Assembly: GCF_032884065.1 (NCBI RefSeq)
Contig: NW_027062691.1
Coordinates: 1-64,000 of the forward strand
Origin: Artemia franciscana
Taxonomy: Eukaryota > Arthropoda > Branchiopoda > Anostraca > Artemiidae
DNA: 64,000 nucleotides
Reading direction: 5' to 3'
In this document: piece after piece, positions 1,817-55,660 of the stretch
Layout of the letters: every line of letters starts with the position of its first letter
Position numbering within the stretch: the stretch's first letter is position 1
Program-made: the position numbers and the translations under genes
The notes under the pieces: model-generated
What the model was told of the DNA's origin: nothing
The model's input: the letters and a program-made list of their open reading frames with translations, nothing else
Databases searched by the model: none

Positions 1817-1963
1817 CTTCTTCCTTTAGTGTAAAAGAGCCGACCAGAAGCTGGGGCGAGCTGCAAGAATTGCTCAAATTCAGGTCCAAATCATTGGATG
1901 AATTGATAGTATTTGGAAGTTCCAAGGCTTCATCAGTCTTAATTTGCAAAGGATCCATCATTT
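1817..1963 (-). CDS. Candidate internal or first coding exon, unknown protein
   Basis: On the minus strand a good 3' splice site (pyrimidine-rich 'ctctgtatttcag', cut at 1963/1964) is followed two bases later by two consecutive ATG codons (1961). An open frame then runs to a 5' splice site 'GAAG|GTATGC' (cut at 1817/1816). The 48 codons begin MMDPLQIKTDEALELPN and end near SFTLKEEG. They are rich in Ser, Asn, Leu and acidic residues and do not look like repeat-derived sequence. Such acidic N-termini are common in transcription factors, but I recognise no domain. The flanking modules are not part of the composite repeat. If no splicing occurs the frame stops at 1776. I infer a real exon; neighbouring exons were not found. 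Confidence 0.4.
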
Positions 1964-4064: not shown

Positions 4065-4333
4065 TATTATTGTGATCCTAAAAAGATTCCCCAATAAAAG
4101 TTTCAAAAAATCACCAAAAAAAGGCAAGAAAAAGAGCAATAAAAAGAGTGTTAGCCCTGTCTCTTAATCAAAGGATTCAAAAATGGCGTAAATATTCTTC
4201 TGGTTCTGATGGTTTTGAATATGCTGTTTTTGTAACAGACAATAGACAATGGCATGCAGAATTGATTCAGGAACCTGGTTTGTTACCTATGAAGAGTGTT
4301 TTCTTGGTGGTCTTGTTACCACAAACTAGTTGA
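4065..4333 (+). CDS. Possible terminal exon, frame uncertain
   Basis: A strong 3' splice-site-like sequence (a run of eight T, then 'ccattgatgtttgcag', ending at 4064) precedes two competing open frames. One runs from the junction to TAA at 4165-4167 and gives a very basic tail containing SPKKGKKKSNKKSVSPVS, as in nuclear proteins. The other is open from about 4090 to TGA at 4331-4333, contains RIQKWRKYSSGSDGFEYAV and lacks an ATG. Only one can be right, and neither may be. AATAAA-like signals follow at about 4551. No homology is recognised. Confidence 0.25.
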
Positions 4334-6308
4334 TTCTAACCGACATTAATTTAAAAAAGAAAGATTTTTTTCTGATGGAAGTGAAAAGCAGTGTTTAGAC
4401 TAAAACAAACAATGATTATTGCCTTAGAGTTTATGTAACACAATTCTACAAAACCAGTCAAATAAACTGACTTGTGATATTTCCCTATATTTGCAGAATT
4501 CTGAAAAGCTAGCAGTTTGTACAAAACTGAGCTTGCTTAAGTTTTTTGGGAAATAAACTGTACAGTGCAAGATACTATTGAGAGCCTTATAAATTAGTCT
4601 TTTTATTTTGTGCAGGCTACCTAGGGTCTTGTGTACTCCTATTCCTCTTCTGTTATTTTTATTTGGGTTTTCAGTATATTAGTGTCAGTTTTACAAAATT
4701 CTGTATCGAAAGAAAGGCGCGACAAGCAATTTTATTTGAACCAGTTTTACAGATACATGAGATAATGACTGTACAGCAATAGCCTAACTCTTATTTATTT
4801 TTAGTTTTACTCTTTAATTCCATTAAAATAAAACTTTTTTTAAATTAATATTCCCCAGGTGCCACCAGCCCTAAGAAAATATCTGGGTATACAGCAGTTT
4901 CTAAGCATTAATGACAGAAAAGGTCAATACAATGATATTATGTCTAAAAAAAACACAAAAACATTAAATTAATAAAGATACAAATATTAGCAGTAATAGT
5001 ACTTTGTGCTCTTGTTTAAGCATTATTTCCATTGGAAAAATTTCCAACAGGATGAAACTTCTAAGCAGTTTTTTTCCTAAAATATAAAATATAACTACTA
5101 AAATATTTAACGCATGGATAAACCCAGCAATAAGTTAATCTGTGAGCACTTAACTACATATATAGCAAGAAAGACAGTTTTCAGCAAAGTGCAAATTATG
5201 TTCTACCCTTTAGAAGGAAAGGGAGCATTACCCTGCTCCTGTTTGTGGTAGTTCTACCCATTTTGAATTGGACTGGGTTATTCATTGTAATTTGTTCTTG
5301 CGTTCACCCTGTTCTTGGTTTCAAAAGTTTATTGATAGTGAATCATTGTGGTCCTTCACTGAAAAATTATTTGAATTTATTGTTGGCCACCTTTGGTATA
5401 ATGTTGTTCTTTGCTTTTCTCAAAAAACCTCTTTTGGGGAAACAGTATCTCTTTTGAGGAAACAGTATTTTCTACTTAACTTAAATCATAGGACTGGCTT
5501 TAGCATGGATATCTTCAATCTAAGACAAGTGTTGTGAAGCAGAAGCAGAACTATTGCATTTAACTGGACTTGAATGCAAGGCTAACTTAGTTTAAGCGTA
5601 AACGAAAAAAAAACTGTTGTAGTCATTCAATTCTAACTGATAGTTCCAAATAGTTCTATAATTTCTAAAACCACTTCACTTTGTCTCCCACCCCAAATGT
5701 GCAAATATATAGTCTAAATCATATATTTCCCATATTTTCTGTTTTTTATTTTATCAATGTTGCTTCTTTGCAGTCAAATCTGCAAAGATTTGACTGCAAA
5801 GAAGGTATTGTTGCCTAACTATACCTTATAGAGAGTCCCACTATAGCTTAAATTAAAGGCCAGGTTCTGAGCTACTACATGAGATTCTTTAAATGAAGCT
5901 ATGACAAGATAGGGATGCAAGTAAAAACAGGAAAATGTTTAATCACTCAATTTTGGATGTTGAATTACATACCATGTAGAGCCAAGACTAGTACTTCTAC
6001 AGGCTAAAGCATACCCTTTTCATTTATTTATTAATTAGGGACATCAAACTACCATGCCTTTCTCATATTTGAAAAGCTAGTAATTACTTGAAGAAAATCC
6101 AACCACTTTTTAATGTTGTAGAGGGTAACTTGAAACCACTAGGCTATAAACTTATACTTAAAACTGACTGGCAGTGTCTTGAATGGCTATGTGGCCCCAT
6201 ACATCAGAATGGAGGAATAGAACAAGCATAAGATCAAGAAATAGCTTCTACTGTTTGTCAATAGTTTATCCACACCATTAATTTAAGTGAACAAGAGCTC
6301 AAAACTCA
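4334..6308. other. Gene-free AT-rich stretch
   Basis: I found no supported gene or recognisable repeat. The overlapping frames at 5245-5537 lack splice context and coding character. Confidence 0.5.
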
Positions 6309-8274
6309 TATGGCACTTGTGACAAGGCCGGAAGAGCCAAGAGCTCATATGGCATGAGCTCTAGCAAAATTCTAAGAATCAATAGATTTATTTAAAAGGA
6401 AAATCAGAGGCTTAATGCCGGTCGGGATTTAAAATAAGATCTCTGAGTCATGATGTCCTTCTAAATATCAAAATGAAATCCGATCACCCACTCGTAAGTT
6501 ATGAATACCTCATTTTTCTAGTTTTTTCTCTCTTTTCAGCCCCCCAGATGCTCCCTGACACACCTACCAATTTTCATCGTCCTAGCACGTCCAGAAGCAC
6601 CAAAGTCACCAAAGCACTGAACCCCGCCCCCTAACTCCCCAAACAGAGCAGATCCAGTACGGTTACATCAATCATGTATCTACGACATTTGCTTATTCTA
6701 CCCACCAAGTTTCATCCCAATTTCTCCACTCTTAGCGTTTTCTAAGCTTTCCGGTTTCCCCCTCCAACTCTCTTTAACGTCAATAGATGTGGTCAGGATT
6801 TGAAACAAGAGCTCTAGGACATTAGTTCCTTCTAAATATCAAATCTCATTAAGATCTGATCACCCATTCTTAAGTTATAAATACCTCAATTTTTCTATTT
6901 TTTCCCAATGAACACACACACACACACCCAGCTCCCCCAAAGAGAACGGATCCGTTCCAAATATGTCAATCACGTATCTATAACTTGTGCTTATTCTTCC
7001 CATCAAGATTCATCGCGATCTCTCCACTCTAAGCATTTCCAAGATTTCTGCTTTCCATGATTTCTGTTTCCCCCTCCAGCCCCCTATGTCCTCAGATCCA
7101 ATTCGAATTAAAAATGGAGCATCTGAGACATAAGAATCCCACAACGCACTTCCCACAATCAATAAAAGTGTATTATTGTTCATAATTGCATATATTCATT
7201 GTTTGCAGACTGGAGGAGAATAGCGCTTTCAGTGGGTGAAAGGACTTGTTGTTAGTCCATATACCTCCCTACAATTTTTGAAACTGGAAGATCCTTCTAT
7301 ATATCAAGTTTCATTAAGATCTGATCACCAATTCATAAGATAAAGTTACCTTAATCTTCACGTTTTCCAAGAATTCTGGTTTCCCCCTTCAACTCCCCAC
7401 AATGTCCCGGATCTGGTCGGGATTTCAAATGAGAGCTCTAAAGCACAAGATCCTTCTAAATATCAAATTTCATTAAGATCTGATTACCCGTTCGTAAGTT
7501 ACAAATACCTCCTGTTTCTAATTTTTCTGAATTACTCCCCCCCCCAACTCCTCTAAAGAGAGCGGATCCGGTCCAGTTATGTCAGTCACGTATCTTGCAC
7601 TTGTTTTTATTCTTCCCACCAAGTTTCATCCTGATCTCTCCAATTTAAGTGTTTTCCAAGATTTGCCCCCCCCCCCCAATGACGCTGGATCCGGTCGGGA
7701 TTTAAAATAAGAGATCTTAGTTACGAGGTCCTTCTTAATATGGAATTTCATTAAGATTCAATCACGCCTTCATAAGTTAAAAATACCTCATTTTTCTATT
7801 TTATCAGAATTAACCCCCCCCCTCCCCATCTCCCCTAAATAGAGTGGATCCGTTACGGTTATATGAATCACACATCTAGGACTTCTGCTTATTTTTTCAA
7901 CCAAGTTTCATCCCAATCTCTCCACTCTAAGTATTTTCCAAGGTTTTAGGTCGCCACCCCCAGCTCCCCCCAATGTCACTGGATCCGGTCGGGATTTAAA
8001 ATAAGAGACCTGAGACATGATATCCTTATAAATATCAAATTCTATTAAGATTCAACCACCCATTTCTAAGTTAAGCATACCTCATTTTTCTAATTTTTCC
8101 AATTTAACTGTCCCCCCACTCCTCCTCAGACGGTTGAATTGGGGAAACGACATTTTCTAACTTAATCTGGTCTGGTTTCTGTTACGCCTGCCAAATTCAT
8201 CGTCCTAGCTTACATGGAAGTGCCTAAACTAGCAAAACCAGGACCAAAAGACTTGGTAGATACCAAGTGCCATA
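6309..8274 (+). mobile_element. Helentron/HINE-like non-autonomous element, copy 1
   Basis: The element starts with TATGGCACTT (6309-6318) and ends with its exact reverse complement AAGTGCCATA (8265-8274). A perfect 7-bp hairpin, ACTTGGT-agat-ACCAAGT (8251-8268), overlaps the 3' end. The interior is a degenerate tandem array of ~300-bp units, each with 'cattaagatc(c/t)gatcac', a C-run, 'agagagcggatccg', 'caccaagtttcatcc' and 'ggatccggtcgggattt'. Short terminal inverted repeats, a 3' hairpin and a central tandem array are the layout known for Helentron-derived non-autonomous elements (HINE/DINE-1). The class assignment is inferred from structure only, and no protein is encoded. Confidence 0.55.
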
Positions 8275-11360: not shown

Positions 11361-11946
11361 GTAGAATTGTAGTTTAGCTACTTTTACTATCTTTGACAGG
11401 GGTTAGGTTAGGAAAATGAAATTTTCAGCAATGGATCTAGGTCCAAATGCATACTCTGGGGAGGAATGGTCAAGCTTGTAAGTTAACTCTTATCTAGTTT
11501 TTGAGTCTTAGAAATTCGTCTACCAGAAAGATAAGACATAGGAATTTAGACAAAACATCATTTTAGCTTATTTTTCAGTTTCAGGCTTTTCTTCTCTGGT
11601 TTCAACCTTGAAAATGCAATTTCTTTTACTTGAGTAGAATTATAAGCAGTTGCAATTGTTTTTGTTTTTTTCAGTTTAAGAAATGTATTTACAGATGTTT
11701 GAAACCTCATAAATTGGAACTGAGCAAAGTTGTGAAGCTGAAAACTCTTTTCTTGTACTTTATCAAAGCAGAAGGTATATTCTGCAGGGTTTTACTTTTA
11801 CTGTACTCTAGAGGGAAAAGAAGCAGAATGATGTACTTCAAAATACCTTTCCAAGACAAATGTCTGTAGATCCATCCTTGAAAGTTTCACTTTCTTAACC
11901 TAACCCCTTTCCAAAATAGCAATAAGTAGGTAAACTAGAATTTTAC
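11361..11946. repeat. Foldback element, diverged copy
   Basis: The left end 'gtagaattgtagtttagcta' and the right end 'taaactagaattttac' are inverted versions of each other. The body carries the family's 'ggttaggaaaatgaaa' motif, the 'ttgagtagaatta' motif and a 'gaactgagcaaagttgtgaagctgaaaac' block. It is a diverged member of the family best seen at 61252-61874 and 14543-15167. Confidence 0.6.
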
Positions 11947-12060
11947 CTGCGTTATATAGCCTAGGCATGTGGCAATATAGGCTACAGTATTTTTTAGAAA
12001 CTTGTTTGAAAACTTTTGATTAGAATAATTTGCACTGTTATATTTTTGGGTTCCATTAGG

Positions 12061-12894
12061 GTAAAATTCTAGTTAATTGACTTCCTGCTATCTCGGAAAG
12101 GGCTTAGGTTAGGAAAATGCAACTTTCAGGGATGGGCCTACAGGCTAAAGTATGTCCCAGGGAGGTATTTTAAAGTACCCACCTCCACTCCTTCTCCCTC
12201 TAGAGGGCCCTGAAATTTGCCTACATGACAGGTCTATACCTATTGAAATTTTGATAGAACAACATTTTACCTTAATTTTCAGTCACTAGTTGCTTTTTCT
12301 CTGCCTTTATTTCTGAAAAATGCAATTCCTGTTATTGGAGTAGAATTTTGAGCTCCCGAGAAGGTATTTTAAAGTACTCACCTCCACTCCTTCTCCCTCT
12401 AGAGGGCCCTGAAATTTGCCTGCATGACAGGTCTATACCTATTGAAATTTTGACAAAACAACATTTTACCTTAATTTTTAGTTACTAGTTGCTTTTTCTC
12501 TGCCTTTAGTTCTAAAAATGCAATTCCTGTTATTTGAGTAGAATTTTGAGCCATATCAATGTGTTTTGTTTTTTTTTTTCAAAATTTAGGAAATGTATTT
12601 GTACATCTTTAAAACCTTATAAAATAGAATTGAGCAAAGTTATGAAGCTGAAAACAATTTTGTTGTACTTCAATTAAGCAGAAGATCTATTTTGCAAGGT
12701 TTCCATTTTATAACACACATATTTTTAAAGGTCATCAAAGGTCAGGGCCCTCCAGAGGGAGAAGGAGTGGAGGTAGTTGCTTCAAAAAACCTTCCCATGA
12801 CATACTTTTGTCTGTAGATTCATCCCTGAAAGTTTCATTTTCCTAAACAAAACCCATTCTGAGATAGGAAGAAGTCAATTAATTAGAATTTTAC
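12061..12894. repeat. Foldback element with internal duplication
   Basis: It begins GTAAAATTCTAGTTAATTGA (12061) and ends with the matching inverted 'tcaattaattagaattttac' (12894). The subterminal arms, which carry the 'ctccactccttctccctcta' motif and its inverse near 12750, are also inverted. A segment of about 170 bp (the 'aggtattttaaagta...' block at about 12160 and again at about 12360) is duplicated inside, making this copy longer than its relatives. It is noncoding. Confidence 0.75.
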
Positions 12895-16059: not shown

Positions 16060-16640
16060 ATACAGTATCTAAGTCAGAGCCTTGCTATTTCTCGGTCACT
16101 TCCAAAAAACCCGTTTAGACATTCTTTGCTGAGATCTATGACTCAGGCCCTTTGTCTCGTTATTAGACATTTTAATGTTTTGAAATTTGTTATTTCAAAT
16201 TGGATTTTCAGAGCGAAAATAGTGGATCCAGGATTTTCTTTGGGGGGATGGGGCACATAATAGGTGCTTTGATAAACTTGCGAACAAAGAAATACCTGCA
16301 ATTAAAAGGGAATCTTGACAATTATGCGTCATACATAGGCCTAGGTAGTGGAAATGGTCTAAAGTGGTAAGGAGTTTGGCCTTTATTTTAATACAACCGG
16401 TTATATTTAATACATTATTTAATACAAACCGTTCAAACTGCTCAATGCATCAGCTCTTTGTCTCAATACATATTAATTTTTAAAAGGTTAATTATTTTTG
16501 GATAAATTTGAGAAATATGTTATTTTAAATTGGATTTTTAGAGAAAAAATAGTGGATTCAGGAAATTTTTTTGGGGGCGGGGGGGCGCATAATAGGCTGC
16601 TTGGATAAACAAAATTTTTATAAATTTTCTCAAACTCGTA
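16060..16640 (+). repeat. Interspersed repeat, inverted partner at 29.9-30.3 kb
   Basis: The block from 'gccttgctatttctcggtcac' (about 16078) to 'ttgataaacttgcgaac' (about 16289) recurs in reverse at about 30025-30230. Part of it ('gagaaaaaatagtggattca', G-rich run, 'cataataggctgcttggata') recurs directly at 16540-16605. Frames are open through two copies but have no start or splice context. I treat it as repeat, not gene. Confidence 0.55.
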
Positions 16641-16830
16641 ACTTTTGATGGGTAAGTCTAAACTTGATAAAACTTATGTATTTAAAATCAGCATTAAAAT
16701 GCAATTCTTTTGATGTAACTATTGTTATAAAAATTCAGTTTTTTAGTTTCGGCTACTATTGACCCGGGTCACTCCTTACTACAGTTCGTTACCACGAACT
16801 GTTTGATTAGCCATAATTTGACGTCAGCAA
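16641..16830 (-). repeat. Interspersed repeat ending in 'cgttaccacgaactgtttga'
   Basis: This block also occurs at about 28960-29145 in the same orientation, and reversed at about 37290-37440 and 55360-55510, where it follows LINE tails. The shared core reads 'actccttactacagttcgtt' here and 'aacgaactgtagtaaggag' in the LINE-linked copies. It is probably the 3' end of that LINE family or a repeat linked to it. Confidence 0.6.
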
Positions 16831-19949: not shown

Positions 19950-20690
19950 TGAATATGGGAAGCAATTAATTTTGGGTTTACTCCCAAAGCAATTAATTTA
20001 CGTGCACGGAATAGTTCGTACAGTCGAGAAAATACTAGGGAAATTATTGAAGAAAAATTATCGTTAATACAAGAAAGTTCGAGAGATCTGGAGTGCGTGT
20101 TGATGGGGGATTTTAATGCGAATACCGGTATGGAGGCTGAGATCTTAGATGTGTTGATCCCAGATTTAGGTGATTTTGTCCCAATTTGTTGTAGAATACC
20201 ACGAAGTAACAAGGATGAAAAAACAAAAATAAATATATGGCGAAGAAAGCTCCTGGCGCTTTGTGGGGAACATGATCTGATGATTACTTGCCTTTCGGGA
20301 CCAACTCCTAGTGTTGTAGATTATGCGCTAATTAAAACGCTATTTGTACCTGAATCAATTAATATGGGAACATTAGCTTTAGTTAGATCTGATCGTAGAG
20401 CTATTAAGCTTCAGCTGAAGGTTGGGCAGTTTCAGGACCGCGTCCCACGAGTAAGAAATTTCTACAATGTGGGGTTTAGAAAAGTAGGTTTAGAAAAACG
20501 AATTATAAATTATTTAACAGATAAGATATTGAGGCATTTAAAAGAGAGCTCTTGGAATCGCATGTAAAAAATAAGTTGAAAGCGTTAGAGGACAATGAAA
20601 AAGATGCACATGGTGTAATTATGCAGTTAAATGAAATAAATGAGCAGTTGTGTAGAGTCGTGTGGCCTGCCAAAAAAATATAAAAAAGAA
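19950..20690 (+). mobile_element. LINE endonuclease (EEP) domain fragment
   Basis: The translation gives NSSYSRENTREIIEEKL, then LECVLMGDFNANTG (GDFN metal/active-site motif, about 20088-20125), then GPTPSVVDYAL (S-x-x-DY motif, about 20300-20330), then LVRSDRRAIKLQL (SDH motif with the catalytic His replaced by Arg, about 20380-20420). This is the C-terminal half of the AP-like endonuclease of non-LTR retrotransposons. The frame is open upstream without an ATG. Near 20525 a one-base shift moves the reading into AFKRELLESHVKNKLKALED, which continues to about 20680. The His loss and frameshift make it inactive. No reverse transcriptase follows. Confidence 0.7.
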
Positions 20691-27569: not shown

Positions 27570-28745
27570 CTGAAAGTAAGGAGCGACATTAAAACTTAAA
27601 ACGAACAGAAATTACTCCATATATGAAAGGGGCTGTTCTCTCTTCAATATCCCGCTCTTTACGCTAAAGTTTGACGCTTTCTCTCCACTCCATTTTTAAA
27701 AACATTAAAAAACTTTAGCGTAAAGAGCGGGGTGTTGAAGAGAGAACAGCCCCTTTCATATACGGAGTAATTTCTGTCCGTTTTAAGTTTTAATGTCGCT
27801 CCTTACTTTTGGTTAAAAAAAACTTGTTTTTTATTTATTTAATTTCTGAACGTTTTTGAATTACAGCATGTTTTGATTTTGGCTCTCCACACTGGAATAA
27901 TTAAAACGAAATTTGCCTATATATTTTTTTTTTGGCTAAATGTTTTTCTCATAGTTTTGATCGGATAATTTTAGAGAAAAAGGAGCAGAGGAGGCCTAGT
28001 TACCCTCCAATTTGCGGCTACTTAAAAAGGCAACTAGAACTTTTAATTATTTACGAACGTTTTTGTAACTTACGAATTAACTTACGTAACGAACTTCTAT
28101 ATTCGTATGTTTTTACTACTTATATGAGGGGGTTCGCCCCCTCGTGAATACCTCGGTCTTCATACTAAAGCTTATATTGTGTCCCAATTCCTTAAGAATG
28201 GCCCCTGAATCACAAAGACCGTAGAATAAATAGTTGAAAATACTAAAAATACTTTAGCGTAAAGAGCGAGGTATTAGAAGGAAGTGAACCCCTCATATGC
28301 GTAATAATTTCTGTTCGTTTTAAGTTTTAATGCTCCTCATTACTTTCAGTTGAAAAGTTTTTCATATTTTTTAAATGCTGGAAAATTCTGCGCCCCCTTC
28401 ATGGAAATTCTCTTCCCCCATGGAAACTTCCCCACAATCGCTCAACCTCCCCCAACCAAAAAATTCACCTGAAAGCATCAATACACTTCCCAAAAACCAT
28501 TACTACATGTAAACACTGGTCAAAGTTTGTAACTTACTGTCCCTCCCACGGGGACTATGGGGGAGTAAGTCGTCCTCAAAGACATAGTTATTAGGTTTTT
28601 CGACTAAGTTGGATAAAATGGCTATCTCAGAATTTTGATGCGGTGAATTTAGGAAAAAAATGAGCGTGGGAGGAGGCCTAGGTGCTCTCCATTTTTTTGG
28701 TCACTTAAAAAAGGCCCTAGAACTTTTAATTTCCGTCAGAATGAG
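27570..28745 (+). repeat. Composite palindromic repeat, forward copy
   Basis: Module A lies at 27570-27818 with both arms complete, the linker at about 27820-28090, module B at about 28095-28345, and the tail at about 28345-28735, ending in 'gcgtgggaggaggcctaggt'. The frames at 27932-28147 and 28660-28842 lie entirely in repeat. Confidence 0.75.
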
Positions 28746-28949
28746 TCCTCTGGCGACATTCTCGGACCACTGGGTCGATACGATCACCCCTGGAAAAAAT
28801 ACGGCAAAAAAAAAAAACGAAATTCAACATTTTTGTAGATAGTAGTTTGAAACTTCTACTCTCGGGTTCTCTGATACGTTGAATCTGATGGTGTGATTTT
28901 CGTTAAGATTGTATCACTCTTAAGGGGTGTTTTCCCCTATTTTCTAAAA

Positions 28950-29160
28950 TAAGGCAAATTTTCTCAGTCTCGTAACTTTTGATGGGTATAACTAAATTTG
29001 ATGAAACTTATATATTTAAAATCAGCATTAAAATTCGATTATTTCGTTGTAGCTACTGCTATATAAAATTCGGTTTTTAAGAGTTTCGGTTATTATTGAG
29101 CCGGGTCGCTCCTTACTACAATTTGTTACCATAAACTCTTTGATTAAATTTGTTTTAAGC
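28950..29160 (-). repeat. Interspersed repeat, partner of 16.64-16.83 kb
   Basis: It carries 'cgtaacttttgatgggta' followed by 'agccgggtcgctccttacta' as at 16.64-16.83 kb. The reverse complement follows LINE tails at 37.3 and 55.4 kb. Confidence 0.6.
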
Positions 29161-36800: not shown

Positions 36801-37352
36801 TAAAATCCCCTCTTGAGTACTCCCCTTCTCAGTCAACTTTGAAGTGAGCCAATTTCTACCAAGAAAACCAAGACTATAGCTTTTCACATGAAAAAATCCC
36901 TTCAGCCCCCAAATATTTGGCTGGACAGTATGCAAATTATGTATTATACCTTGCAAAAGCTTTTGGGAGTTATATTAGACCCTAACTTGACTTGGAAGAA
37001 TAAAATAGAATTGGTGAGATAACCTTGTTTAAAGAAACTTTTCATCATGAAACAACCAGCAGGCACAAAATGGGCCAGCCCTCCAATTGTGATGCTGGAC
37101 TTCTACAAGAGGTTTATACTTTCCTAGATGGAATACGCTCTAGAAGCATTTGGAGGCTGCTCCAAGACAAGTCTGGCAAAGCTGGTAATTATTCAGAACA
37201 TGGCAATAGAGTTGGTAATGGGTCTCCCAAATCATAGACCAAGTTATAAACTTAGAGTTCCTTCTGGAATCCCTACACTCAAACAGTTTGTGGTAATGAA
37301 CTGTAGTAAGGAGCGACCCAGCTTATTAATAACCAAAGCTCTAAAAAACTGA
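36800..37352 (+). mobile_element. LINE ORF2 tail, copy 1
   Basis: The translation contains STKKTKTIAFHMKK-like sequence near 36850, LQKLLGVILDPNLTWKNKIE near 36960-37010, KKLFIMKQPAGTKWASPPIV, FYKRFILS, a stop, then MEYALEAFGGCSKTSLAKL, IIQNMAIELVMGLPNHRPSY, LRVPSGIPTLKQFVV. The order (KTK, a LGVxLDxxLTW block, W-x-x-P, EYA, IQNxAIRLxxGLPxxxP) is that of the region after RT in jockey/CR1-type LINEs. Stops and a frameshift break it. It is followed by the 'aactgtagtaaggagcgacc' repeat. Confidence 0.6.
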
Positions 37353-37429
37353 ATTTTGATACCAATAATTACATCAAAAGAATCACATTTTAATGCTGAT
37401 TTTAAATATATAAGTTTCATCAAGTTTAG

Positions 37430-38180
37430 TCTTACCCATGGTTTTTTAAAGCATATCTATACTTATGTATGTAATCTTGTGCAAGTAGAACATAGCTGGC
37501 TGTAATGTATTCTCAGGAACTAAGCCTGTAGACTTTGATGAGCTTTTCTGCTCAGCTTATTCTAGGAGGCTAACAAAGCAAAATATGCATTTTTTCAAAG
37601 GGAATGCCCAAACTAGGGTATTTTTCAAAATCTAGGGGGCACAGGAATTCCTACCCTAATTGCCTCCTTCCTCCCATTTAATATCACTAGAACCAAGTCT
37701 GTAGACTTTAAATACCGCCTTTGCCGTCTCTTTGCTGGATTAAAATTGTATGTTTATGATGAATTATGTTTCGGATGAGTCTCTGATTATTATGAGAGAT
37801 GATTTTCATCTGAGTGACTATGGAAAGATTTTCTTTTTCTGACTATGTTTTCATTTGCTTTAAGTCGAAAATTGATTCTTTCAGATACGTGAAGTAAGAC
37901 GCCAAGAATTCTCTGAAGAAGAATAATTGTAACTGGTTTCATGTTTCTCTTGACTCTGATGAAGGTTCCCAGCTAGCATACTTTAATGTAAGTTCTTGGA
38001 TATTTCTTACAATTATATTCCTGTGTTTGAAGTACAGATATATTGGAAGCTTTGAGAGGGGGTCATGTTCAATGTATCAGGTTTCTACTAAAAATGAACC
38101 CTTGTGCATCTGACCCTAGGTGCAACTAAAACCTCGTTTAACCAAACCCCATTCAACTGAACCCTCAGCCAACCCAACTT
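37430..38180. repeat. Interspersed repeat, copy with two blocks
   Basis: Block 1 ('aagcatatctatacttatgt' to 'ctcagcttattct') recurs near 39150, 42830, 53670 and 55510. Block 2 ('ggatgagtctctgattatta' to 'tattggaagctttgagagg') recurs near 39590, 54000 and 59100. The pair of blocks at the same spacing occurs here, at 39.1-39.9 and at 53.6-54.35 kb, so they form one repeat unit. Confidence 0.7.
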
Positions 38181-44560: not shown

Positions 44561-45460
44561 TTATATTCCCCCTCCAAACTCCAAACCCTAGCTTTGCCCC
44601 TAATCTACCTCAAATTTTGCAGGTAGTCAAGTGTTGAAGTTTCATTTTTAAAAGGGATTAGAAACTTTTTAAGAAGCCATACTGAACTATTTTCAGTATT
44701 ATTCAGCGATGGTATTAGATAACCATTACATGAAGTTTTTAATCAAAATAACATGTACTACTGATCTGGCCAACAGAGAGTTACAAACACTCCTGTACAA
44801 TTACAGCCTCGTGGACATTGTTGAAGTCAAAAGTAAACTACACCCAACGACGAATATATGCAACAAGAACTCACTTATGGACGGCTTCAGGATAGGCTGA
44901 TGTATGAAATTAACAATGGGATTGCCCATTGTGTGGTAATAATTTTTTTTTACTTAATAATTCTTGGCTTAATAGCATCTATATAATTTATTTTCCCCAG
45001 TACCTCGTCAGTTAGGGTATGGGTGTTCTTTTTCAACTTAAAATAATACGAATCTAGTAATGTCACAAATCTTTTCTAGGGGTAAAACGAAGACACAAGA
45101 GGAAATGTCATCTCCCCAGTATCATTTGTTAGTATAGAAAAGACAATATGGGTCTAGTTTTCAGTATCTCACTTTTTCTTGCCTGAGAAAGGCTTGACTG
45201 ACGCTCCTCTAAAATACTTTATTTTTGTCTCAGATGTTCTTTAGGATTCCAAGTGTCAAGATTCTTCTGAATAGTTTAATTTCCATTTTGTACGCAAAAT
45301 TACACAAAAGGTCAAGGAGGCACACTCGTGCCTCTATAAAGAGGCGACCCATGACAATGTTAAGCGATCTTTGGTTCCAGTGGTCGCAGAGGGATGGGGA
45401 GGGATGCATTTCATAGCCCGAGCTCCAACTAAGAAACCTGCAAAATTTCATCCCCCTCCA
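44561..45460. other. No supported gene
   Basis: A 63-codon frame at 44709-44900 has protein-like composition (RELQTLLYNYSLVDIVEVKS) but no start or splice context and no recognised motif. Nothing else is seen. Confidence 0.3.
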
Positions 45461-45469
45461 ACTTTTCCT

Positions 45470-45955
45470 TCATGGGGAAAATCTGGCCGAAAGTTTCGAC
45501 CCGTCAACCCCAGCCCCCCTTTAACGTTGTCCGATCGGGCTGAAATTCACAAGTTAAGGTCCCCTAGGGCCCAGGAGCTTATCCGCGAAATTTCAGCTCG
45601 ATCCGATAACTCCTTCCCTGTTTTCCAGAAACCACGCATAGCCACTTAAAATTCATGTTCTTTGTTTTTCTAGACGCCTACAGGTCACATCCGACATCGG
45701 ATATGGGTGTACGAAGACTCATTCGATGCGGAATTCTCCGAGTAATTTTCCTGGAAAGTTTCGTAGGAAAATCTTAACCCCCCGAAAGTTTCGACCCCCC
45801 AACCCCACCCCTCCTTTTAACGTTGTCCGATCGGGCTGAAATTCACAAGTTAAGGTCCCCTACGGCCCAGGAGCTTATCCGCGAAATTTCAGATCCGATC
45901 CGATAACTCCTTCCCTGTTTTCCAGAAACCACGCATTAGCTACTTAATTAACGAT
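45470..45955. repeat. Two direct repeats, ~170 bp each
   Basis: The block 'cgaaagtttcgacccg' to 'tccagaaaccacgcat' occurs at about 45489-45640 and again at about 45783-45938, with few differences. It contains 'gttgtccgatcgggctgaaa'. The spacer is ~140 bp. No coding frame is kept between the copies. Confidence 0.75.
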
Positions 45956-46026
45956 TTTCTCTCCATAAGAGCCCATGTTAATTTGAAATTTTTAAAAGTT
46001 ATTGAGAAGTTATATTTACACACATG

Positions 46027-46100
46027 CAAGTTATTAGCTCAGTCGGTGGAGCGTGGGACTTTTAATCCTCGGGTCAAGGGTTCAAGTCCCTTACGGGCGG
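46027..46100 (+). tRNA. tRNA-Lys(TTT)-like sequence, probably pseudogene or SINE head
   Basis: The D arm/A box 'TTAGCTCAGTCGGTGGAG', an anticodon loop CTTTTAA and a T arm/B box 'AAGGGTTCAAGTCCCTT' are in correct order and spacing for tRNA-Lys(UUU). A T8 run (46101-46108) follows as a possible Pol III terminator. The 5' acceptor strand (GCAAGTT) does not pair with the 3' strand (ACGGGCG), and the anticodon stem has one mismatch and one wobble. It is therefore probably not a working tRNA. It ends 23 bp before the left direct repeat of the helicase element. Confidence 0.5.
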
Positions 46101-46123
46101 TTTTTTTTCACAACATCAAAAAA

Positions 46124-46353
46124 ATTTTGATAACACCTGGACAGTTTATCATTTGAGAGATAACAGAATATTAGCTTCTTATGAGCAAAAGAAACATTTC
46201 GGTCATTCTATCTATTTTTTTTTCTATTTTATACAATGATTTAAAAGCGGGGGGGGGGGGGTTCCTCTCCTAGTTCCTGTACGAGGAGTACAGTAATTAT
46301 TAAATTACATCCACCATGGATTGTAGAAAAACGTACAGAATTAATATGAAAAA
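46124..46353 (+). repeat. Left direct repeat flanking the helicase-USP element
   Basis: 'attttgataacacctggac' to 'gaattaatatgaaaaaaa' matches 50941-51187 closely. It lacks the 'gttggggggcggcagccacc' piece present on the right and holds a G-run instead. After it, 46358-46406 matches the inner part of the palindrome arm at 51499, so the left end looks like the right end with its palindrome mostly deleted. Confidence 0.8.
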
Positions 46354-46425
46354 AAATTAAACCTGTACAAAAGAGTCTTTAAAAGCGGGGGGTTTGCCTC
46401 TCCTAATAGTCTTCTTATAGTCCTA

Positions 46426-49400
46426 ATAAGCCTGTTCGAACTGTTAGCCTGGTACGAACGCGAGAGAAAAGGCACAGACGAAAAACTACTGCTCAGAGAT
46501 GGATCCTTTCATTTGCGCAGACGAAAGGAAAAACCCTACGTAATCCAGCACAGGCGCGTGAATCCAGTGGAATCGGACGAAAAACGCGAGGAATACTATG
46601 GCATGCTTCTGAAGCTTTTTAAACCGTGGCGTAAAGCGGAGGACATCTGTTTCGATGGGAAATCCAACCATGAAACTTATTGCATCGAGAGCGATAACTA
46701 TCCCACCATGGTCGAGTATCATGAGCGCTCTTTAGCAAAAGTACGAGAAGAAGAAGAGTTTGAACGCAAAGTACGAGAACGTGCAAAAGAACTCGAAGAG
46801 AAAGAGAAAGAAGCAGCACTCGAAGAGAACATGGACGACCCACAGAATGCAATTCAAGGCGCCGCCATAGATAGAGCAGCAGACGCAATGGAAGACCTTG
46901 TGAATGCAAATCGACGACTGCTCGACGCCAACACAAAAGAACAAGTGGCAAAAGAATATTTGTCTCTGAATGTTGACCAGAAACGTGTTGTTGACAAAGT
47001 GACGAACGCAGTCAAATCACCCAACAAGACAGCACCACTCCGTATGATTGTCTCAGGATTCGGAGGTGCAGGCAAGTCAGTTGTGATAAAAGTGATTCGA
47101 AACATCCTCTGTCATCATTTCAGCAAAGACAAATGTCCCGTCATCGTTATGGCACCCACAGGACTTGCAGCATATAGCATCAAAGGAGAAACAATACACA
47201 GATGCTTCAGTTTGCCCGTCGATCAAGCAGGAACCTCCAAATACTCTGAACTCTACACTGAGCAACTGCTGACACTCAGGGCAATCCTACAGAAAACACA
47301 TCTCTTCATCATTGACGAAATAAGCATGGTCTCCGCGCTCGCATTCATGTACATCCATCTGCGACTCACAGAAGTCATGAGCATCAACGCTGTCATGGGA
47401 AACGCAAATATGCTAGTCTTTGGCGACTTTCTACAACTCAGACCTGTCTCCGCAAACCCACCGTTCAAGCAACTCACACGGCTGGAAATCAAAAATTGGA
47501 TCGGCTCAATGGGAACATTTGATCTCTGGAGTCACTTTGAATATGACGAGCTCACTATTAACATGCGTCAGAAAACGGACACAGACTATGCCGACCTTCT
47601 CGCAAATATTCGCGTAGGAATTTGCACAGACAACAATCACGAACAGCTACAGCGGCGAAAAATCGAATCTAATCGCAGAGCAACAAACGAGGAGATTGCC
47701 GACAAGTATATCGAACTAGTGGCGCTTGGGAAAACACCAGTCATTCTCATGCCAAGAAACGTAGACTGCAGATCGGTAAACGAAACGCTACTTGCGAAAA
47801 CGTCAGACAACATTTCCACCTTCACTGCCATCGATAGACTCTCCACCGTCCTCCGTGACAAGCGAATTGAAGCTGAGGCTGCAGAAAACGTAAAGAGCTT
47901 TGAAAACGACAGCAAACGAACCGCCGGGTCAATTTCTCACCTCAAACTGGCACTCGGCGCTCGCGTCATGCTACAGCGAAACGTTAACGTAGAAGAAGGT
48001 CTCGTCAATGGTTCCATGGGCTATGTTAAAGGATTCAAGATGACAGCGGCAAATATAGCAGTCGGCATACAAGTACAGTTCGACGGACAAGATAAAATCG
48101 TGGAAATCGAGCGTGAAACAGTGAAATTCGAGGCTCTCAAAGAGGTGTACTACACACGTAGACAGTTTCCTCTGACGCTGGCCTACGCCATCACCATCCA
48201 TAAATCCCAAGGACTGAGTCTACAGACTGCACTAGTTGACGCAGGTGATCGCTGTTTCGGACCAGGTATGATCTATGTAGCTCTCTCTCGTGTCACCATG
48301 AGCGAAGGTCTACACCTCATCGATCTTGACAGAAGGAAAATTTGTGCAGACACAGAAGCTCTAGTCGAGTACAATAGACTGCGACAAAAGTATCGTCCAG
48401 ATCTGCCCCAGTTCGCAATACCAGAACCCTTCAAAGTTCCCACAGTTCCAGTGGCGAAACAGCAACCAGTTAAACGAAAACCGAGTAGCAGCACCAGCAT
48501 AGACGTACCGCCAAAGAAATCCAAACCTGATGCAGCCAAAGATAAGCCCAAGACTAACCCAACTCCCGCACGGAAAGTGAAACCCACTACAAGTGAGGCG
48601 AAGAAAAAAGCGCCCACCAAGAGATTGAACGCGGAAGCAGTTGAAACCTCGTTTCCCACAAAGAAAACGCAGCACGACACAGCTGTCAAACAAAACTATC
48701 GCAGTGGCATTGGCCCGGGTAGAAAAGGCCTGAAAAATACAGACGGCTCAGCGTGCTATGCGAACGCAACGATGCAAAGCCTTTTTGCCATGCACTACAA
48801 GCTGTTCGAAGTACTTTCAGTTATGCACGGACCTTTCGCCGAAGAACTCAAACGATTGGCACTCAGTTCGCTCGGAAAGAATGAAACTATGGACACTGTG
48901 CGTAGCCTCCTGCCGCCACAGCACAACTACACAGGCAGAGATCAGCAATCGCTATGCGAATTCTGGTTCCACCTATTTGAACAACTCGACGCAGAACATC
49001 AAGCCAATGACATGAGCCCCCTTCGCTCCCTGTACCAGTTCAAGATTCATAGATTTTCTGTCTGCAGCACGTGCCACTGGTCCAAAACCGCATTGCACCC
49101 AGAAGGTACTCCAGACTGTCCATTTCCGATTCCAGGTGTTCTAAATCCCAACGAGCCTGCGATCAACGAAATTATCGACAACAACGACATTTCTTTCAGT
49201 TCGGTTCTAATCCCAGAGCAGCCCGGCGAAACATGTCCCAACGGTCACGTCACCAAACTGAGAACAGTCTTCACTCAAGCTCCTGAGTACTTGGCCCTCA
49301 ATCTAGACAGACGAACACTCTGCCACAAGATTACGCGACGCGTCATTGACTTCGACCCGGAGCAAATTCTTTTACATAGAACAGATGACGCTGACCTCAG

Positions 49401-49629
49401 ACACGGCAACATCTACAACCTCGGCACAATGTCATCAATACGATACCGTGCAATTGCTGTTGTCATTCACTCAGGGTCCAGCTTTGGAAACCAGGGCCAC
49501 TACTATGTATACCGCAGAACACTGGAAGGTGCATGGTGCAAATGTAACGACTCTGAAGTAAGAGTTGCCAAAAACGCGTCAGAAATAGACTTTTCAGGTA
49601 TGACATTCATGATACTTCAGAAACTGTGA
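46426..49629 (+). CDS. Helitron-type Pif1 helicase fused to a ubiquitin-specific protease, 5'-truncated
   Basis: One uninterrupted frame of about 1,065 codons, GC-richer than its surroundings. The start ('WYERERKGTDEK', 'LRDGSFHLRRRKEKPYVIQH', 'EEYYGMLLKLFKPWRKAED') is the linker that precedes the helicase in Helitron proteins. The Pif1/SF1B helicase follows: Walker A GFGGAGKS (47056-47079), Walker B DEIS (47314-47325), GDFLQLRP (47422), HKSQG (48199-48213) and VALSRV (48277-48294). A Lys/Pro-rich linker (48430-48700) leads to a USP domain: Cys box GLKN..ACYANATMQSLF with Cys at 48754, CSTC (49063), TCPNGH (49231), His box GHYYVYRR (49495-49518) and NDS (49546-49554). All catalytic positions are present. 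No in-frame ATG precedes codon 46603 and the frame is open back to 46345, running into repeat. The HUH Rep nuclease is missing, so the element is probably non-autonomous. I infer DNA unwinding in rolling-circle transposition plus deubiquitination. Confidence 0.85.
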   Translation: MSLFELLAWYERERKGTDEKLLLRDGSFHLRRRKEKPYVIQHRRVNPVESDEKREEYYGMLLKLFKPWRKAEDICFDGKSNHETYCIESDNYPTMVEYHERSLAKVREEEEFERKVRERAKELEEKEKEAALEENMDDPQNAIQGAAIDRAADAMEDLVNANRRLLDANTKEQVAKEYLSLNVDQKRVVDKVTNAVKSPNKTAPLRMIVSGFGGAGKSVVIKVIRNILCHHFSKDKCPVIVMAPTGLAAYSIKGETIHRCFSLPVDQAGTSKYSELYTEQLLTLRAILQKTHLFIIDEISMVSALAFMYIHLRLTEVMSINAVMGNANMLVFGDFLQLRPVSANPPFKQLTRLEIKNWIGSMGTFDLWSHFEYDELTINMRQKTDTDYADLLANIRVGICTDNNHEQLQRRKIESNRRATNEEIADKYIELVALGKTPVILMPRNVDCRSVNETLLAKTSDNISTFTAIDRLSTVLRDKRIEAEAAENVKSFENDSKRTAGSISHLKLALGARVMLQRNVNVEEGLVNGSMGYVKGFKMTAANIAVGIQVQFDGQDKIVEIERETVKFEALKEVYYTRRQFPLTLAYAITIHKSQGLSLQTALVDAGDRCFGPGMIYVALSRVTMSEGLHLIDLDRRKICADTEALVEYNRLRQKYRPDLPQFAIPEPFKVPTVPVAKQQPVKRKPSSSTSIDVPPKKSKPDAAKDKPKTNPTPARKVKPTTSEAKKKAPTKRLNAEAVETSFPTKKTQHDTAVKQNYRSGIGPGRKGLKNTDGSACYANATMQSLFAMHYKLFEVLSVMHGPFAEELKRLALSSLGKNETMDTVRSLLPPQHNYTGRDQQSLCEFWFHLFEQLDAEHQANDMSPLRSLYQFKIHRFSVCSTCHWSKTALHPEGTPDCPFPIPGVLNPNEPAINEIIDNNDISFSSVLIPEQPGETCPNGHVTKLRTVFTQAPEYLALNLDRRTLCHKITRRVIDFDPEQILLHRTDDADLRHGNIYNLGTMSSIRYRAIAVVIHSGSSFGNQGHYYVYRRTLEGAWCKCNDSEVRVAKNASEIDFSGMTFMILQKL

Positions 49630-50180
49630 ATCAGCCATTAACAGTACTTTAATTCTCGTTTCAGATTCCAGTTGCCATCAAATGTCACAAAACGTAAACA
49701 ATCTGTTTCTCTAGAAACAACTGTCCACATCTGTTTTTTTAAAAACACCAAAACCGTCAGTGATCTGCCGCGGTTAGGCAGTGAGACTACCTTTTCTTCC
49801 CCGTAATCTGTTGTCTGTCATCGGTCAGAGCTTGCAAGCTTAAGAATCATAGTCAACCATGACACAGCACAGCAGTACCAAAAAAAAACCAAACACACAA
49901 CAGATTACAAACAGTGACGCCTCATCGTGGCGGGGAAGTGGCAAAGGTTAGCATTTACGTTAAATGTCATCGTACATGAATACGATTATCATTTCAACCC
50001 GTGTATGAATACACGACTTTAAAATGCACTTGCAATATAAGTTTTTGATTGAATTTATGCAAGAAAATCTGATGATATTAAAAACAATATAGCTGAGGAG
50101 AGAATGCAAAATCCATATAAAAATCAACCCGTGTGTAGCAGTTTAATTTTGAAATAGAATATAACAATTCGAAATTTTAG
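49630..50180. other. Element interior without a gene
   Basis: AT-rich sequence after the helicase stop. It has a small hairpin CGTGTA-tgaa-TACACG (about 50001-50016) and 'caacccgtgt' twice (about 49997 and 50127). If spliced, this could be the intron belonging to the exon fragment that follows. Confidence 0.4.
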
Positions 50181-50685
50181 CAGATCTCGACAACGATGAA
50201 ATAATCGATGAAAGTGCCGAAGTTTCATCTGTTCCTAATTTGACTATTGTGCAAAGTTCTGAATAAGTTGTTGTGAAACCTTTTATACAAAAACGACCTC
50301 AGCCATTCACTCGTCTTCAACGCCCAAGTTTGCCAAGAAGAATCAATGACTCACCTCTTCGTCAAAGACAGCACCAACCCACTCCAGATCCACTCCTAAG
50401 TGAAAGTAATTCTGACTATTATGATGAAAGTGATGATGAAGTTGTTGACAATTTTAAAGAAAATAAGTTAGAAAAAGTCAAGATTGTGAATGGACGTGTA
50501 AGATGCTTCGATGTGGGCAATTTCCCCCATTCTGGTAGCTGTAAAAAATTTATAAATTGTGCACGAGTTGACTGGAGCTGTAAGATACATGTCCAAAAGA
50601 ACTGACTTTTGACCCTGTTGGGGACTTTGCAACTGGGGCAATCCTCAGCGATGTCCGAAATAAGTGTGATATAAATGTGCTTTAA
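50181..50685 (+). pseudogene. Decayed exon with chitin-binding (peritrophin-A, CBM14) domain
   Basis: A 3' splice-like 'gaaattttag' (ending 50180) precedes a frame reading DNDEIIDESAEVSSVPNLTI, an in-frame TAA (50264), then a Pro/Arg/Gln-rich part (RPQPFTRLQRPSLPRR), an acidic part (SDYYDESDDEVVDN) and RCFDVGNFPHSGSCKKFINC. A shift near 50590 moves the reading to CPKELTFDPVGDFATGAIL and then RNKCDINVL and a stop (50683-50685). The cysteine pattern with GNFPHxxxCxxFxxC and CPxxLxFDP is that of CBM14 domains in arthropod cuticle and peritrophic proteins (CPAP-like). It lies between the direct repeats that flank the helicase-USP gene, so I infer a captured host exon. Stop and frameshift make it nonfunctional. 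Confidence 0.65.
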
Positions 50686-50940
50686 GTATATATTTTATAG
50701 CCTTTAAGTGCTCATTGCCAATTTTTAGGTGAATTTTCAAATGTTTTGAAGAAGTTTAAGTTTTTCTCGATTTAATGAAACGTGGATATTTACTTATTTT
50801 ATATAAATAGTTGCTAAATAAGATAAATAATATATAATTTACTATAATTACCTAAAGATGTTTCCTATATGAGAAGGCATTTTTAGAATAAATTCTTTAT
50901 TATAGGCTTTTGGACGTAGCGATCAAAATAAAAGTGTATA

Positions 50941-51187
50941 ATTTTGTTAACACCTGGACTGCTTATCATTTGAGAGATAACAGAATATTAGCTTCTTATG
51001 AGCAAAAGAAACATTTCGGTCATTCTATCTATTTTTTTTTTCTATTTTATACAATGATTTAACAGCGGGGGGGTTGGGGGGCGGCAGCCACCCAACTTCC
51101 TCTCCTAATTCCTCTACGAGGAGTACAGGAATTATTAAATTACATCCACCATGGATTGTAGAAAAACGTACAGAAATAATATGAAAA
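50941..51187 (+). repeat. Right direct repeat flanking the helicase-USP element
   Basis: 'attttgttaacacctggact' to 'gaaataatatgaaaaaaa' matches 46124-46353. The shared sequence includes 'catttgagagataacagaat', 'cggtcattctatctattttt' and 'cacatggattgtagaaaa'-like sequence. It contains 'ggttggggggcggcagccac', a variant of the hairpin in the adjacent palindrome. Confidence 0.8.
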
Positions 51188-51645
51188 AAACTTCGTTTTC
51201 TTAAAGAGTTAAAGAGGCTGCGTCCCAAAGTCGAACCTTAAAACGTACAGGAATTAGAAGAGGCAGTTGGGGGGCTGCCGCCCACCAAACCCCCCGCTTT
51301 TAAAGACTCTTTTGTACAGGTTTTTTGTTTTTTTGCTAACCCCCCGCTCTTGGCTTCGGAAAGGCCCTCTTTTAATTAAAAAATAATTGAAATGAATGAA
51401 TAATGGAATAACTTCGAAAAATGTTAAACACAAGAGGACAGGAGAACCATTGCGCCGAAACTAGTAATTAGTAACAATGAAGTCCCCCCCACAAAAAAAA
51501 CCTGTCCAAAAGAGTCTTTAAAAGCGGGGGGTTTGGGGGGCGGCAGCCCCCCAACTGCCTCTTCTAATTCCTGTACGTTTTAAGGTTCGACTTTGGGACG
51601 CAGCCTCTTTAACTCTTTAAGAAAACGAAGTTTTTTTCATATTAT
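51176..51645. repeat. Palindrome with 150-bp arms and internal GC hairpin
   Basis: The left arm (51176-51327) and right arm (51493-51645) are near-perfect reverse complements, from 'ataatatgaaaaaaac' to 'tcttttgtacagg' and back. The right arm contains a 9-bp hairpin TTGGGGGGC-GGCA-GCCCCCCAA (51533-51554). The left arm has the same hairpin with changes. The spacer of ~165 bp shows no gene. Part of the arm recurs at 46358-46406. Confidence 0.85.
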
Positions 51646-54689: not shown

Positions 54690-55660
54690 TTGAAAGCTAA
54701 TATTTATATTTACGCGCTTTTCGTAGTTCTGTCATGACAATACCATCATAAAATGCCTTATGGCACCATAATATAATTTTAAAGTCTTTTTAGAGTATAA
54801 AGGCTTTGAAACATAAAAGATTTACCACTGAAATATCCATGATCGAAAAGTCGAAAACCCTTAAACTGGTGTTTAAAATCCTCTCTTGAAGACTCTCCTT
54901 CTCAGTCAACTTTGGAGTGAGCCAATTTCTACCAAGAAAACCAAGGCTATAGCTTTTCACATGAAAAAGTCCCTTCAGCCCCCTATTATTTGGCTGGACA
55001 GTATGCAAATCATGTGTGATACCTCGCAAAAGCTTTTGGGAGTTATATTAGACCTTAACTTGACCTGAAAAAATAAAATAGAACTGGTAAAACAACCTTG
55101 TTTAAAGAAACTTTTCATCATGAAACAACTAGCAGGCACAAAATGGGCCAGCCCTCCAATTGTGATGCTGGACTTCTACAAGAGGTTTATACTTTCCTAG
55201 ATGGAATACGCTCTAGAAGTATTTGGAGGCCGCTGCAAGACAAGTCTGGCAAAGCTGAAAACTATTCACAACATGGCAATAAAGTTGGTAATGGGTCTCC
55301 CAAATCATAGACCAAGTTATAAACTTAGAGTTCATTCTGGAATCCCTACAATCAAACAGTTCGTGGTAACGAACTGTAGTAAGGAGCAACCCGGCTCAAT
55401 AATAACTGAATCTCTGAAAAACTGAATTTTGATACCAATAGTTACATCAAGAATCACATTTTAATGCTGATTTTGAATATATCAAGACTTCATCAAGTTT
55501 AGTCTTACCCATGGTTTTTTAAAGCATATCTATACGTATGTATATAATCTTGCATAAGTAGAACGTAGCTGGCTGTAATGCATTCTCAGGAACTAAGCCT
55601 GTAGACTTTGAGGAGTTTTTCTGCTCAGCTTATTCTAAGACGCTGACAAAGCAAAATATG
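54690..55660 (+). mobile_element. LINE ORF2 tail, copy 2, with duplicated flanks
   Basis: STKKTKAIAFHMKKSLQPP, LLGVILDLNLT, stop (Trp codon changed to TGA), KNKIELVKQPCLKKLFIMK, FYKRFILS, stop, MEYALEVFGGRCKTSLAKL, TIHNMAIKLVMGLPNHRPSY and LRVHSGIPTIKQFVV lie in one frame from 54886 to 55425. It matches the 36.8-37.35 kb copy including both flanks (54690 and 55370-55660), so this is a segmental duplicate and not an independent insertion. Confidence 0.65.

Follow-up and report, generated by a model that had tools for sequence, protein, structure and literature searches.

Why a ubiquitin-specific protease (USP) should be joined to a PIF1-type helicase in a single open reading frame (ORF) is the question raised by positions 46345-49629 (+) of a 64,000-nucleotide stretch of the Artemia franciscana genome, which we call the window (contig NW_027062691.1, positions 1 to 64,000, of assembly GCF_032884065.1). 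An original prediction, made from the letters of the window alone, had seen here a Helitron-type helicase fused to an apparently active USP. As described below, full-length relatives in the same genome carry the domains DUF6570, Rep (HUH type, with two tyrosines), PIF1 and USP in one protein, and the USP has been kept with its catalytic residues through a long divergence. We think, with a probability of roughly 60%, that the window ORF codes for the C-terminal half of such a replicase in a recent, internally deleted copy of a rolling-circle transposon, and that its USP would be an active deubiquitinase acting in cis, an activity predicted from the sequence.

Domain composition of the window frame

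The frame is uninterrupted over 1,094 aa, and its parts are the following.

46345..49629, forward strand: open frame of 1,094 aa; from about 46432 it corresponds to residues 1428-2492 of the full-length protein on contig C10, with 11 substitutions in 1,065 residues
46978..48420, forward strand: PIF1-type superfamily 1B (SF1B) helicase domain (Pfam PF05970 and PF21530, and matches in the genome)
48421..48702, forward strand: Lys/Pro-rich linker, poorly conserved (22.5% identity between the two families A and B introduced below)
48703..49626, forward strand: USP domain (PF00443) with Cys 48754-48756, His 49498-49500 and Asn 49546-49548; presumed zinc ligands at 49063, 49072, 49234 and 49246

The helicase part matches the Pfam PIF1 domain (E 1.3e-26, 94 bits) and Pif1_2B (E 1.6e-7), and its motifs are found as GFGGAGKS (Walker A, 47056), IIDEIS (47308), FGDFLQLRPV (47419), IHKSQG (48196) and YVALSRV (48274). 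A linker with 18 lysines and 12 prolines in 90 residues leads to a C-terminal, near-complete UCH/USP domain (E 3.8e-18, 66.5 bits, profile positions 2-241 of 254), and these matches and motifs bear out the prediction of helicase, Lys/Pro linker and USP in one frame. The predicted catalytic boxes are present as well, with codons for Cys at 48754, His at 49498 and Asn at 49546, the latter followed by Asp at 49549, in the PF00443 order of the USPs (peptidase family C19). The metal site had been read differently. There are not two CxxC pairs; one CxxC (49063/49072) and a CPNGH motif (49234/49246) together form a C-C-C-H site that presumably binds zinc.

The helicase alone is less telling with respect to its origin. 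It aligns collinearly to the Helraiser structure 7lcc with 102 bits, and other PIF1 entries score similarly or slightly higher, up to 112 bits, so that the score by itself cannot separate Helitron from cellular PIF1 helicases. NCBIfam models (RecD2, TraA and similar) match solely below their curated cut-offs.

Full-length relatives in the same genome

The check on which the original prediction had made most depend was a search for paralogs in which the same helicase-USP is preceded by a Rep domain of the HUH type, and these exist. In the window's own genome (1.27 Gb in 6,468 contigs), which is the genome meant throughout, the PF00443 profile gave 126 matches, five of them within frames longer than 2,000 aa. 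An uninterrupted frame of 2,492 aa at C10:1767277-1774752 represents family A, to which the window copy belongs, and one of 2,679 aa at C76:531747-539783 represents family B. Both contain DUF6570, Helitron_like_N (Rep), PIF1 and USP, in this order and in one frame. Helitron_like_N scores 92.4 bits in the C10 frame and 94.7 bits in the C76 frame, and by eye both show the Rep motifs PHVH and YxTDYMTK, the latter with two tyrosines. The SF1B PIF1 helicase thus resides in the same protein as the Rep domain, as is typical of the Helitron superfamily. An apurinic/apyrimidinic (AP) endonuclease C-terminal to the helicase was found in neither family, the frame terminating in the USP.

The two families have been separate for long. 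Their amino acid identity is 67% in the DUF6570-Rep region, 66% in PIF1 and 22.5% in the linker, and it amounts to 48.9% over 305 aligned residues of the USP, where 41 of 57 comparable fourfold sites have changed; synonymous sites between A and B are saturated. Seven USPs from A, B and stand-alone proteins were aligned (three of the eight stand-alone loci described below were taken in), and all of them share the catalytic Cys and His as well as the four presumed zinc ligands. The third triad residue is either Asn or Asp, while the Asp that follows it never changes. As a side observation, family B-like USP copies are clustered in both orientations over about 27 kb at C9:38394277-38421567.

The helicase-USP join was also followed through the genome, for which 83 of 100 helicase rows and 59 of 115 USP rows were used; the 17 excluded helicase rows are those resembling canonical Helitrons at 30-37% identity, the Helentron rows and C116, with their fragments. 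Among loci of the A/B lineage that keep the C-terminus of the helicase, a USP lies directly behind it at 25 of 28 (10 of 11 in A, 15 of 17 among B-like copies). The gap between the two search matches is 284-821 nt, and it is 307-319 nt at 14 of these 25 loci, which include the window; two of the 25, on C76 and C3032, are 99.8% identical and could be one locus assembled twice. Where the C-terminal end of the helicase is lacking, a USP was seen at three of six loci with 53-67% identity, at none of three with at least 90% and at none of 21 below 53%.

The element that carries the window frame

The transposon around the frame can be delimited by comparison with its full-length relative, an element of 11,506 bp at C10:1765498-1777003. 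Boundaries agree between three copies at the 5' end and five at the 3' end, and in the window they give the following features.

45312..51644, forward strand: whole family A rolling-circle element of 6,333 bp, at whose limits the homology to the full copy begins and ends; an internal-deletion derivative
45312..45345, forward strand: 5' terminus, beginning 5'-TC, with a hairpin of 7-bp stem at 45317-45334 and the 5' arm of an asymmetric inverted repeat, TAAAGAGGC, at 45337-45345
46426..46429, forward strand: deletion junction (junction letters), at which C10 index positions of about 1818-6755 are lost, between two collinear BLAST pieces of 99.2% and 95.2% identity
49630..51644, forward strand: 3' non-coding part, which contains, close to the 3' end, a long inverted repeat that is nearly perfect
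51603..51644, forward strand: 3' terminus, with the arm GCCTCTTTA at 51603-51611, 33 nt from the end ...CATATTA; no CTRR

Position 46426, which had been taken as the start of the gene, is therefore the point at which about 4.9 kb have been lost through an internal deletion, and the element extends over 45312-51644. The deletion has removed the ORF start and the first approximately 1,426 aa, comprising the N-terminus, DUF6570 and Rep, and an autonomous window copy is ruled out by this loss. From the first in-frame ATG, at 46603, the derivative may still yield a Rep-less helicase-USP protein as a non-autonomous element. The window copy shares its ends with the C10 element, and its coding part is 99.2% identical. 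The long frame had been ascribed to recent activity or to selection; it is explained by recent descent from the full-length family (about 99% identity) and not by selection on the window copy itself.

As to the class of the element, the Helitron assignment stands on the fusion to Rep in the paralogs, which is firmer evidence than the helicase tree, whereas the termini differ from the canonical type (Helitron1), in which a 5' TC, a 3' CTRR and a hairpin some 11 nt before the 3' end go with insertion between A and T: the 5' TC is there, the element ends in CATATTA rather than CTRR, and a consistent A in the 5' flank is lacking (A in C10 and at locus L024, G in the window). Three features of Helitron2 are seen, namely an asymmetric terminal inverted repeat with 9-bp arms at positions 26-34 and 33 nt off the 3' end, a 5' hairpin (DNA fold z = -2.6, with 3 of 200 shuffles equally good) and an ORF without endonuclease. 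For the last 90 nt the best fold is -4.9 kcal/mol, a value without shuffle control. A TTTT insertion preference is absent from the 5' flanks of three copies, which end in GTCA, AAGG and CTGA, a target duplication was not seen at the ends of two copies, and no empty site for the window copy was found in the genome. As TTTT flanks are missing and a 3' hairpin is not established, we file A and B as non-canonical Helitrons with Helitron2-like ends and not as Helitron2.

Repeats occur in and beside these elements. The inverted repeat at the 3' end of family A is 98% identical over about 310 bp (C10, loci L029/L012, index 11416-11727 and 11895-12205; about 51176-51644 in the window), and a stretch of 250 bp next to it is present once more in the 5' non-coding part of family A. 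Another repeated sequence occurs in the window at 28438-29145, 16622-16808, 37279-37439 and 55347-55512, on C10 up to index position of about 694 and on C76 at index 336-1106. It ends only a few bases away from the start of the C10 element and from the point where the homology of the C76 element ends, as if both elements had inserted at the terminus of the repeat.

A second arrangement with an N-terminal USP

A frame of 2,446 aa at C4112 9808-17148 shows a different order: the USP is at the N-terminus and is followed by DUF6570, Rep (Helitron_like_N, 83.7 bits) and PIF1, and the C-terminus is an AP endonuclease (PF14529 41 bits, PF03372 27.9 bits), because of which this element is a Helentron. 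Its USP matches 27 stretches of the genome, three of them near full length at 95% identity or more (itself included), and the weakest of the 27 is a family B-like USP. In the helicase tree, which included 10 of 80 viral loci and no cellular PIF1 row, A and B group with a Helentron helicase at 90/94, with a warning from the tool that long branches meet there, and the canonical Helitron, on a very long branch, is placed with little certainty. The viral loci came from a search of viral contigs with the Rep-helicase alignment, which gave 281 relatives; the 80 retained are 26-31% identical in the helicase part. In the USP tree the C4112 protein stands apart from A and B, although a single clade is not rejected (AU test p 0.056, with long branches and two host USPs only).

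Affinities of the USP

When the A, B and stand-alone USPs are combined into a profile and compared with PDB entries, the best match is 6tbm chain Q with 47 bits, presumably a USP of the Ubp8 type (the enzyme of SAGA that deubiquitinates H2B); USP18 and USP15 entries come next with 33-35 bits. The C4112 USP differs from this profile in its affinity, which is to USP46/USP12 (43-45 bits), and an ordinary host USP used for comparison matches USP4 with 335 bits. All Cys boxes that retain the Cys, be it in A, B, the stand-alone or the N-terminal USPs, follow the pattern N-x-D-x-x-S/A-C-x-A-N and are one residue longer than in this one host USP and in USP7. Searches with the USP profile gave five pattern stretches in viral contigs and 33 in prokaryote genomes, none of which was confirmed.

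The nearest relatives found are stand-alone USPs, single-frame ORFs of 361-831 aa at eight loci (L019 on contig C18; L020, L021 and L023 on C1; L022 on C7; L025 on C5; L026 on C17; L027 on C19), several of which show by eye an N-terminal hydrophobic segment. They are about 32-39% identical to A and 37-43% to B, and in the tree they come together at 78/78 only, adjoining A and B. Their ratio of nonsynonymous to synonymous substitution rates (dN/dS) reaches 1.3 in recent pairs, which is fast, and is near 0.35 in older pairs. It may be tentatively proposed, with somewhat more doubt than confidence, that a mobile USP lineage with the longer Cys box is carried by two classes of rolling-circle transposons at opposite ends of the replicase, has replaced OTU in this genome, and has a common ancestor with the multicopy, possibly membrane-anchored stand-alone USPs of the host, which would be its descendants or its source.

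Proposed role and alternative explanations

We propose that the USP, tethered to the Rep-helicase, would strip ubiquitin off the replicase or off host proteins at the transposition site, for which replication or repair clamps and histones are candidates. The complex would in this way escape extraction or degradation until the circle has been made and integrated, and the USP would occupy the place held by OTU or VTD in other Helentrons. Catalytic activity, ubiquitin as the substrate and action in cis are all predictions here.

Several observations weigh against this proposal. The similarity of the USP to characterised USPs is very low, with best scores of 24 bits for a single sequence and 47 bits for a profile, so that ubiquitin is an assumed substrate. 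Rep and PIF1 are both better conserved between A and B than the USP is, and the within-family comparison of copies that had been suggested originally gives a pooled USP dN/dS of 0.52 in A and 0.70 in B (eight rows each), values in which selection on active lineages is combined with the decay of dead copies. Among older helicase relatives (below 53% identity) that retain the C-terminal end, a USP is detectable in two of six. The stand-alone USP on contig C19, finally, keeps a frame of 609 aa although its catalytic Cys and His are gone.

The faster evolution of the USP, compared with Rep and PIF1, would also suit a captured fragment of a host gene, carried along as a passenger without a role, and Helitrons are known for gene capture (PMC6431247). 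We regard this as improbable, as the fusion is in frame and intronless in the full-length copies, occupies the same position in two synonymously saturated families with catalytic boxes and zinc ligands kept, and recurs at 25 of 28 loci; the conservation between A and B largely refutes it. A domesticated PIF1-USP chimera, that is a host gene and no transposon, would likewise account for an intact frame without Rep, and its probability is smaller still: the frame lies between transposon termini that are common to other copies, and 19 dispersed USP matches of at least 90% identity, many of them partial, occur in the genome, the window included. The flanking transposon ends, together with the 99% match to a Rep-bearing element, rule the host gene out. 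For an artefact of assembly or annotation nothing was found in favour and its chance is close to nil. A false join between the helicase and USP halves had been named as a possible refutation, but misassembly is ruled out by the independent copies, as the same join, with a gap of 307-319 nt at 14 of 25 loci, recurs on many contigs and in the diverged family.

The main rival, which we consider unlikely though clearly less so than the preceding ones, leaves the enzyme active and changes its target: the USP would act on the chromatin or silencing machinery of the host, for example by deubiquitination of histone H2A/H2B, and not on the replicase. The presumably Ubp8-type 6tbm chain Q as best profile match points in this direction. 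A role in chromatin changes has also been proposed for the OTU protease (PMC4067079). The match is weak, USP18 and USP15 entries come next at 33-35 bits, and a substrate cannot be read from a sequence. In our view the replicase or proteins at the replication site are the more probable target.

Comparison with known elements

Two other deubiquitinase classes were looked for in this genome. The OTU profile (PF02338) gave just two matches. They lie some 11 kb from each other on C6, in frames of 99 and 90 aa, and as both frames are short there is no OTU match in a long Helitron-like frame. PF04843, presumably the Pfam family of VTD, gave no match in a search without a working positive control.

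Rolling-circle transposons that bear a deubiquitinase are already known, as described in the papers cited in this section, and what appears to be new is that the deubiquitinase is a USP, judged by its predicted domain. A USP in a Helitron or Helentron was not among the matches listed from the open-access literature, a scope outside which Repbase lies. Helentrons carry an OTU-like cysteine protease and resemble A and B in a rolling-circle coding part of Rep and PIF1 that includes a deubiquitinase-type cysteine protease (PMC4067079, PMC6431247). The C4112 element also shares their defining C-terminal AP endonuclease, and the difference is that the protease is here a USP (PF00443), which in A and B is C-terminal and comes without endonuclease. 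VTDs, which belong to another class, the herpes tegument type, likewise lie inside a Helitron frame in Helitrons or Helentrons; those of zebrafish Helitrons are active as deubiquitinases in vitro and have been suggested to prevent the degradation of transposition proteins (PMC9741609). The prediction that transposons recruited deubiquitinases more than once fits these published OTU and VTD cases together with the USPs found here.

Helitron2 and other non-canonical Helitrons have in common with family A a 5' TC with hairpin, asymmetric inverted repeats, no CTRR and a Rep-helicase without endonuclease (PMC5148889). They differ in the insertion site, printed as between TTTT and T or C, a preference not seen in the family A flanks, and the accessible part of that description mentions no USP for Helitron2 (PMC5148889). 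More distant parallels come from PMC2836005. In Trichomonas vaginalis an IS5-like transposase is joined to a Peptidase C19 domain and thus to a USP-type domain, but this is a Transposase_11 and not a rolling-circle replicase, and a single protein is mentioned. Ginger1 and Mutator are DNA transposons with ubiquitin or SUMO proteases (OTU or Ulp1), C-terminal in Ginger1, but they are cut-and-paste elements with other protease classes.

Other observations in the window and the genome

A frame of 204 aa at 19953-20567 of the window looks by eye like an endonuclease of a non-LTR (long terminal repeat) retrotransposon. The Helitron Rep profile PF14214 gave 7,436 first-look candidates in the genome. 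The 150 that were scored differ little (about 197-205 bits) and seem to belong to a single abundant Helitron family; their frames reach 1,688 aa, apart from one of 2,091 aa. TTAGG is the usual telomere motif of arthropods, and a 30-mer of this repeat has 21,398 forward and 10,779 reverse overlapping matches in the genome, with none for the reversed control, which points to a probable arthropod host.

Implications

A USP is found at both protein ends, in two element classes of one genome. If active, it would be a third class of deubiquitinase, after OTU and VTD, that is built into rolling-circle replicases. For Helraiser a transposition assay reportedly exists. If the USP is active, unrelated deubiquitinases have been put to use repeatedly, which would be an argument that Helitron transposition generally requires the removal of ubiquitin.

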